DNA from: an uncultured Clostridium sp.
GTDB lineage: Bacteria; Bacillota; Clostridia; TANB77; CAG-508
Length of the DNA stretch: 64,000 nt
Assembly: GCA_947302485.1 (NCBI GenBank)
Contig: CAMYVO010000002.1
Span: 124,001-188,000, forward strand
Reading direction: 5' to 3'
Shown here piece after piece: positions 43,738-45,319 of the stretch (positions are counted from its first letter, which is position 1; every line of letters begins with the position of its first letter). The notes below the pieces were generated by a model. It saw only the letters and a program-made list of their open reading frames with translations. It had not been told where the DNA came from and searched no databases. Both the position numbers and the translations under genes were made by a program.

Positions 43738-43766
43738 TTGCAGGTTATGTAAAATTATGGTATAAT
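43738..43766 (+). promoter_or_regulatory. Promoter of the Cys-rich protein gene
   Basis: TTGCAG (43738-43743), a 17-base spacer and TATAAT (43761-43766) place transcription start near 43773. This excludes an upstream start for the Cys-rich gene. A TATAAT on the other strand (43668-43663) serves the divergent alanine racemase-like gene. Confidence 0.75.
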
Positions 43767-43814
43767 TATTATGTCAGCAAAGTAAACAAAAAAATACAAC
43801 TAGGAGGTAACATT

Positions 43815-44474
43815 ATGGTCATTTTGTTTACTGTACTCACTGTGATAGCCCTTATAGCTATCGCAAACTTTATTCTCAATTTAATCAATCATAACTCAAT
43901 CAGTTGTTTTGCCTGCTTCGGTAAATACAACCAAAACAGCTTTCTTTGCTGGAAAGTAGACAATTGTAAAAATTGTTTGCTTTGTAAAGAATGCTCGCTG
44001 TGTACAGATTGTATGTTTTGCTCTAACTGCAATTCATGTGAAATATGCATTAGGTGTTTAAACTGCAATCAAAGCAGATTTTGCAAAACATGTGCAGACT
44101 GCTTGTGCTGCAATGCATGTGAAAATTGCAGAAATTGCAATTCCTGCAGAGCTTGTACTATATGCAATAGTTGCATAAGTTGCATTGATTGCAATGGTTG
44201 CAATGGTTGTACCATTTGTACAAACTGTATAGATTGCACAGAATGCAAAAGATGTACTAATTGTGCTACTTGCATTACTTGTACAGAGTGTATTAAGTGT
44301 AAAACTTGTGCAGACTGCAATAAGTGTGAATCTTGCACAGACTGTGGCGATTTTTGCACAAACTGCAAGGAATGCAATAATTGTTCTGAATGTACTTCAT
44401 GTACAAGTTGTTATGAATGTTCTTACTCAAGCAACATGGAGAATCATGCGTTTGATTCTCATTCTGAGGAATAA
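43815..44474 (+). CDS. Membrane-anchored CxxCxxC-repeat protein
   Basis: The 219-residue protein begins with a transmembrane helix (MVILFTVLTVIALIAIANFI). From about residue 36 nearly every third residue is Cys for some 160 residues, 54 Cys in total (for example CNSCISCIDCNGCNGCTIC). The residues between are small or polar (Thr, Asn, Ser, Asp, Lys). The tail is short and acidic. The start follows TAGGAGG and agrees with the promoter. No known family was recognised. The three-residue period could form a metal-loaded or disulphide-stacked solenoid. The divergent operon with MurE-like and ATP-grasp genes hints at an envelope location. Confidence 0.85.
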   Translation: MVILFTVLTVIALIAIANFILNLINHNSISCFACFGKYNQNSFLCWKVDNCKNCLLCKECSLCTDCMFCSNCNSCEICIRCLNCNQSRFCKTCADCLCCNACENCRNCNSCRACTICNSCISCIDCNGCNGCTICTNCIDCTECKRCTNCATCITCTECIKCKTCADCNKCESCTDCGDFCTNCKECNNCSECTSCTSCYECSYSSNMENHAFDSHSEE

Positions 44475-44519
44475 GAATCAAAATATTTGATTAAATTGAT
44501 TGATTAAATTGAGAGAATT

Positions 44520-44548
44520 TAAAGCCAGGAGATTTACTCCTGGCTTTA
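44520..44548. terminator. Bidirectional terminator
   Basis: A 12-bp perfect stem (TAAAGCCAGGAG with its complement) and ATTTA loop lie between the convergent Cys-rich gene and the 44566 gene. Confidence 0.75.
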
Positions 44549-44565
44549 TCCTTATTCTATTTTTA

Positions 44566-45201
44566 TTATTGAAATTGTATGTAATATTCATACATCTTTT
44601 CATTAAAACTAATATCAAATATTACCTTCTCTTTAATTCCTTTACCTACTCTTAAATCTTCTAAATATTTTTTTGAAATTATTGAAAGTTGCGCAATATT
44701 ATTAAATCTATTTCTATTGTTTTTTACACCCATAGTATAACTACTATCTGCATATTCTTTTTTATCTTCATTTACTAAAATTAATATAGGAATTTTAATT
44801 TGCTTAAAAAATATACATATTTTATCTGTAATATATTTAATCGCTTCTTCTTCTGTTTTATTTTCAATATATAAATTAATTTGTGTTAAATAAGATATTT
44901 TATACTTATCTATATTTTGTTTAAATTTACTTGTTTGCAATAGTCCTATTAAATTGTATTTTGTAAATAAAAAATTAACATTATCTTTTTCCATTCTATC
45001 TAAATTATATGGTAGTCTATCTTCTATTAGTTTATACATGCTTTTATCATTTTTTTCTTTTTTTAATATACCATTATTTTCTAATACTTTTGTTTTATTT
45101 ATATAATTAGTTTCTATCTTAAAATCGTTTTTAAATAAATTGATTATTTTTTCATCTACCTCTTTTTGAATTTTACTTTTTTCTTCATTTGTTAATTTCA
45201 T
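44566..45201 (-). CDS. Hypothetical protein
   Basis: I do not recognise this soluble, Lys/Asn-rich protein of about 211 residues. Its mixed alpha/beta sequence includes IKIPILILVNEDKKEY and EKVIFDISFNEKMYEYY. The start is uncertain: ATG codons at 45210 and 45201 lie close behind AAGGAGG, while the ORF opens at 45243. It follows an XRE regulator gene on the same strand and ends at a terminator. It might be a partner of that regulator. Confidence 0.6.
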   Translation of the reverse strand: MKLTNEEKSKIQKEVDEKIINLFKNDFKIETNYINKTKVLENNGILKKEKNDKSMYKLIEDRLPYNLDRMEKDNVNFLFTKYNLIGLLQTSKFKQNIDKYKISYLTQINLYIENKTEEEAIKYITDKICIFFKQIKIPILILVNEDKKEYADSSYTMGVKNNRNRFNNIAQLSIISKKYLEDLRVGKGIKEKVIFDISFNEKMYEYYIQFQ

Positions 45202-45319
45202 ATGTTTCATATCCTCCTTTTTAACTATTACTACAATTTTCATAGATTACTCTATACTATAATTTACTCTCAGTAAACAATAAAAGTAGCATATACTTGC
45301 TACTTATTTAATTTTATAT

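Follow-up and report, generated by a model that had tools for sequence, protein, structure and literature searches.

What kind of protein results when cysteine recurs at almost every third residue behind a single membrane helix? The question is raised by a gene at positions 43815-44474 of the window, by which we mean the whole 64,000-nucleotide stretch of DNA analysed (contig CAMYVO010000002.1 of an uncultured Clostridium sp.). A first-pass annotation had described its product as a transmembrane protein with about 50 CxxCxxC repeats, and had suggested a triangular solenoid lined with Cys that would bind metal clusters or stack disulphides, possibly as an electron-conducting or metal-storing device. 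The locus contains the following features:

43738-43766, forward strand: candidate promoter, TTGCAG, 17 bp, then TATAAT following TGn (extended -10), read by eye
43802-43807, forward strand: Shine-Dalgarno sequence AGGAGG, 7 nt 5' of the ATG, read from the sequence
43815-44474, forward strand: coding sequence P0001 for a membrane-anchored [C/S]xx repeat protein of 219 aa, ATG start and TAA stop
43818-43895, forward strand: single N-terminal membrane helix (res. 2-27), from hydropathy and AF2, predicted N-out/C-in from flank charges
43905-43967, forward strand: start of the Cys domain (res. 31-51), CFACFGK...C, from the alignment
43965-44420, forward strand: Cxx triplet array (res. 51-202)
44520-44548, forward strand: intrinsic-terminator-like hairpin of 12 bp, from a folding computation

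The frame at 43815-44474 is a real gene, with recognizable gene signals, mixed Cys codons (27 TGT and 27 TGC) and homologues elsewhere, and it codes for one N-terminal membrane helix followed by 54 Cys. The extended -10 element, TGnTATAAT, occupies 43758-43766. The -35 hexamer TTGCAG is weak and matches the consensus at three of six positions, which is why a promoter scanner did not return this candidate; we infer that the two elements form the promoter of the Cys gene. Downstream, the region of the terminator hairpin (44505-44565) folds with an energy of -21.7 kcal/mol (z -4.8). The gene is single-copy in its own 1.285 Mb genome and stands alone, with alr (alanine racemase) divergent and a gene for a 225-aa protein convergent (44566-45243, reverse strand; no Pfam match). 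The flanking genes scanned gave no metal, redox or export pointer. Two other frames, a longer ORF with a TTG start (43692) and a reverse-strand ORF of 102 aa that mirrors the Cys repeat, are unnecessary alongside the ATG frame. Most public matches to (Cxx)11C resemble tandemly repeated DNA translated in one frame or another. For the window copy, a frame artefact is ruled out by its gene signals, its homologues and its diversified triplets; 72% of the dipeptides are distinct within the array's longest run.

The periodicity that had attracted attention is genuine: 47 of the 53 Cys-Cys gaps measure three residues, and the remainder comprise two gaps of 6 and one each of 11, 4, 2 and 1. A single phase accommodates 43 of the 54 Cys, and the longest unbroken in-phase run counts 30; when the residues were shuffled 20,000 times, the maxima were 32 and 10, respectively. 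The array is interrupted by CNQSRFC (res. 84-90), which places a Ser in phase, by CLCC (res. 96-99) and by CGDFC (res. 177-181), which shifts the phase. A hidden 12-mer repeat was looked for in the x residues of the window protein, and no 12-residue periodicity was found.

The protein belongs to a family not described before, whose members differ greatly in length. When 195 relatives were searched with phmmer, one clear homologue emerged, in G116 (259 aa, 75 Cys); profile searches, with two rows against 390 genomes from the source genome's bacterial family and with nine rows over the order, added homologues in G269, G313, G218, G381, G314, G468, G472 and G473. Nine or more further genomes of this bacterial family carry homologues, so the ORF is not absent from its relatives; no member was detected beyond this family among 391 genomes of the class (E 1e-6). 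Of the three homologues in G269 (67, 21 and 11 Cys), two form a closely spaced tandem pair. The array ranges from 11 to 75 Cys; short relatives have 11-15, and some relatives measure 83–90 aa. Apart from small deviations, every member retains one N-terminal helix of ~20-25 residues, a flank rich in Asn and the core C-x2-C-[WFI]-G-[S/C]-x2-C. Asn22, Asn27, Cys31 and Cys34 (window numbering) are invariant in the alignment. In the window copy, CFACFGK...C is the equivalent of the core: CFACFG is kept, and a Lys and a longer gap, of 11 residues to the next Cys, stand where others have S-x2-C. Across the family, 287 of 322 Cys gaps measure three residues.

The genomic neighbourhoods of the homologues differ between genera. 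Three genomes of genus g32 share a locus flanked by what we take to be pyrG and groES, and three genomes of genus g8 share one flanked, presumably, by rseP and aspS (all four names recognized from the sequences, not by family search). In G116 (L273) and G269 (L268), the homologue lies 3' of a recognizably homologous ABC substrate-binding gene and contains 75 and 11 Cys, respectively; array length thus varies widely at apparently the same locus. The G116 array is visibly repetitive at the DNA level. The ABC substrate-binding gene is split into two frames in G116 (L273:697-1708) and open in a single frame in G269 (L268:685-1695, reverse strand).

No Pfam or NCBIfam model, metallothionein models included, matched the window protein up to E 10, which rules out a known curated domain; the earlier view that the protein is unlike metallothionein and zinc-ribbon families is borne out, and no known family of a different fold was matched. 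We found no description of such Cxx arrays in the literature. Weak matches of 230–250 aa (L256–L266) were rejected as homologues. They form a separate Cys-rich family of ~232 aa (...FCSHISN[KR]KYCIANM.FEKEEY...; e.g. L258:148-846, reverse strand), found in many of this bacterial family's genomes and without a Pfam match over the cut-off. The Patescibacteria protein L126 carries a C-terminal motif, DCFGCVGLRHKRYHIFNKEYSKE, that resembles theirs.

The single membrane helix is evident from a mean KD hydropathy of 2.77 over residues 2-20, and AF2 models a helix at residues 2-27 (block pLDDT 85, 78 and 62). In 11 family members, the N-terminal tails are 0-9 residues long with a net charge of 0, and the stretch of 15 residues that follows the helix sums to +9; the window member has no charged residue in the immediate helix flanks and is neutral on both sides. 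By this flank charge bias alone, the Cys domain is predicted to be cytoplasmic (N-out/C-in). The genome has no match to VKOR or Thioredoxin_4 (DsbA-type), models whose control searches match elsewhere. Given the predicted C-in topology and an oxidase search that covered VKOR and Thioredoxin_4, reduced thiols are the likelier state, and the proposed stacking of disulphides is unsupported on both counts.

A pointer to the role of the Cys comes from the sites where one is missing. Of the family's 20 C-x5-C gaps, in which one in-phase Cys is skipped, 15 have Ser in the middle, against a Ser background of 4.4% at other x positions (P about 5e-17 if the sites were independent). Seven of the 15 are one shared core site, hence dependent, and without it 8 of 13 are still Ser; G313, G468 and G472 have Cys at this core site, where other members have Ser. 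The six C-x5-C gaps of phage Cxx proteins have four Ser and two Leu in the middle. A viral pattern scan with one Cys replaced found AGY in at least 120 contigs versus AAY in 12, an excess partly due to mutational accessibility and spurious repeats. Because Ser takes the place of Cys in phase, packing of buried small residues is a simpler account than metal or disulphide chemistry, and the [C/S] positions would fit a buried small-residue core better than metal ligands or disulphides. Of the original description, the triplet period stands, and the repeat is better named [C/S]xx than CxxCxxC.

We predicted the structure in two AF2 jobs, one with two sequences and the other with 23, phage arrays included. 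The first gave a best mean pLDDT of 70 (pTM 0.50), with the other four models at 34-44; the second gave a best mean of 68 (pTM 0.43), with all five models at 54–68. AF2 model 1 places strands at residues 62-70, 74-82 and 86-94, then at 98 and 110, with a spacing of 12 residues. Model 2, from the second job, has bridges at every third residue over 61-91, and its blocks within residues 41-80 reach pLDDT 81-86. Foldseek searches with the predicted models returned best E-values of 2.8 and 0.34 in the PDB and 0.28 among viral models, none significant; these insignificant matches were mostly parallel β-solenoid or β-helix, pentapeptide and LRR proteins, and 1ezg was matched by the pLDDT 70 model at prob 0.15, E 4.0 and TMt 0.45. 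When 76 Cxx segments were pooled, bulky residues were depleted opposite one another at distances of two and three triplets (z -4.2 and -3.3), and at four triplets, identity scores z 1.9 and opposite charge is mildly favoured (z 2.4); drawn from 60 comparisons, these pair signals are suggestive at best. With low-to-moderate AF2 confidence, no significant Foldseek match and no 12-residue periodicity, a β-solenoid is a hypothesis, if a supported one. The solenoid part of the earlier proposal survives as the best hypothesis for the fold, backed by solenoid-like strands in models of low to moderate confidence (best pLDDT 70). Its triangular cross-section needs adjusting, since in the closest structural precedent a turn consists of four triplets (12 residues) and the strands of AF2 model 1 lie 12 apart.

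We consider it an even call whether the protein is a membrane-tethered, cytoplasmic β-solenoid rod with a Cys/Ser core and reduced thiols that serves as a scaffold or binding surface. The N-terminal helix would tether a [C/S]-x-x array of variable length on the cytoplasmic side, and the triplets would coil into a narrow β-solenoid, each turn taking up about four of them (12 residues). The first residue of every triplet, Cys or now and then Ser, would point inward and pack the core, since a 12-residue coil is proposed to admit small residues only, and the two x residues would form a polar, variable surface that is the working part. The reducing cytoplasm would keep the thiols reduced. Such a rod would have about 13 turns in the window protein and about 19 in the longest relative. 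At the membrane, it would most likely serve as a rod-shaped scaffold or a surface for binding, and a secondary thiol-redox or soft-metal buffering capacity is plausible.

The main rival to this structural rod is a thiolate metal store or buffer, a membrane-bound counterpart of metallothionein in which adjacent CxxC motifs bind Zn, Cu(I) or Fe-S clusters. CxxC is a common spacing at metal sites, the domain predicted to face the cytoplasm offers 54 Cys within about 170 residues, and capacity would scale with the variable array length. However, metallothionein, ferredoxin and zinc-ribbon models do not match, no metal-related gene lies among the flanking genes scanned, and the spacing is uniform: CxC and CC are almost absent, and there are no loop-separated Cys clusters. 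In addition, in-phase Cys gives way to Ser, which binds soft metals poorly. We judge a metal store unlikely overall, and the frequent in-phase Ser and the range of 11-75 Cys leave the earlier idea of metal-cluster binding unsupported.

Less probable is an exported protein at the cell surface (N-in/C-out), a disulphide-stapled β-solenoid like the beetle antifreeze protein. The closest precedent in sequence and fold is indeed a secreted disulphide protein, and a single N-terminal helix could serve as a signal anchor. The charges flanking the helix in the 11 members are nevertheless the reverse of those of a signal anchor, the oxidase search (limited to VKOR and Thioredoxin_4) found no match in the genome, and in the loci read, phage Cxx proteins show no obvious export signal. 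It is also quite improbable that an unbroken core of ~50 reduced thiols lines up soft metal ions, or redox-active thiols, in one dimension, which would let the rod, at the cytoplasmic membrane, store metal or conduct charge to an extent set by its length. Electron conduction, raised by the first-pass annotation, finds no support beyond the presence of thiols; Ser substitutions and the variable array length speak against it.

Neutral growth of a low-complexity sequence, in which only the helix and a few initial CxxC motifs would count and the array would be non-functional, would agree with the short relatives, with the extremes of array length at apparently the same locus in G269 and G116, and with the DNA-level repetition in G116. 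We find it highly improbable for the window protein, in which the triplets are diversified, TGT and TGC are equally used and the phase is held over 160 residues, a regularity that neutral drift would destroy. The chance that the protein is a modified-peptide precursor of the heterocycloanthracin/sonorensin type (Cys to thiazole), whose precursors carry Cxx runs and are presumably resembled by L053 and L084, is close to negligible and excluded as far as tested, as the genome has no YcaO cyclodehydratase (PF02624; the control search matches in 5 genomes) and the 219-aa product has a membrane helix instead of a leader and no adjoining modification genes.

If the rod reading is true, the triplet Cys array would be about the simplest repeat able to make a β-solenoid, and it would do so inside a bacterial cell and without disulphides, unlike the beetle protein. 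The conserved anchor and core, combined with 11 to 75 Cys at apparently the same locus, make the choice between a structural rod and a scalable thiol or metal device testable. Phages commonly carry similar arrays, often in several copies, so that a single answer might account for a large number of unannotated proteins.

Among known sequences, the window protein matches the profile of PHROG 15341, the phage Cxx proteins, at E 1.6e-15 (best stretch res. 117-210). This match is driven by the Cxx array and is thus weak evidence of common descent; in a search of 398 genomes of the phylum, the window's genome and one other matched strongly. PHROG 15341 and several IMG/VR families (L140, L178, L183, L196, L237, L298, L333) share the [C/S]xx array and the Ser-for-Cys exchange with the window family but have no membrane helix and have other N-terminal segments (e.g. 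RWYDENNNSW...YSPTLT or DENGNxNC); the likeness may be convergent. Searches (tblastn) with Cxx proteins or short N-termini against phages and plasmids returned nothing, the full-length queries having probably hit the low-complexity filter. Several phage contigs carry paralogous Cxx-array genes (four copies in L140, at least three in L178, three in L224, at least five in L333, and L298), which share the N-terminal segment and differ in their arrays, suggesting diversification. Two adjoining Cxx-array genes of a Bathymodiolus gill symbiont (L095:1255-1437 and 373-654, both reverse strand) both start with MKDR.PD..GNINC. In mycobacterial and other actinobacterial proteins (L045, L054, L088, L091, L116), GSIATVGSAxVA 12-mers run into a Cxx array of ~12 Cys that ends in GLRxxxGxRxxH. 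There, a small residue at every third position gives way to a Cys at every third position, as in the window array, but these proteins lack an N-terminal helix of the window type and their sequence homology with the window protein is not established. A leucine-rich repeat study of 2008 reportedly described Cys stacked in a solenoid as one ladder, versus a Cys in every triplet here.

The nearest structural comparison is with the Tenebrio/Dorcus antifreeze β-solenoids. The top PDB sequence match of the window protein is 1ezg, at a composition-driven E of 0.0042. The beetle coil has 12 residues with C2, S5, C8 and A11 facing inward, that is, every third residue, and recombinant proteins reach the active fold on disulphide formation (PMC8038014). 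This dependence on disulphides, which are not expected in the cytoplasm, counts against the solenoid reading here. The two also differ in that nearly all inner positions would be Cys in the window protein, which has a membrane helix and is predicted to be cytoplasmic and reduced, and in that the TCTxSxNCxxAx repeat, the TxT ice-binding face and the TCT array are absent from it. Although homology is not detectable beyond composition and period, by its sequence pattern the window protein would share with the beetle proteins a small inward residue (Cys, Ser or Ala) at every third position and a narrow, Cys-rich coil. It may work like the TmAFP family without belonging to it.
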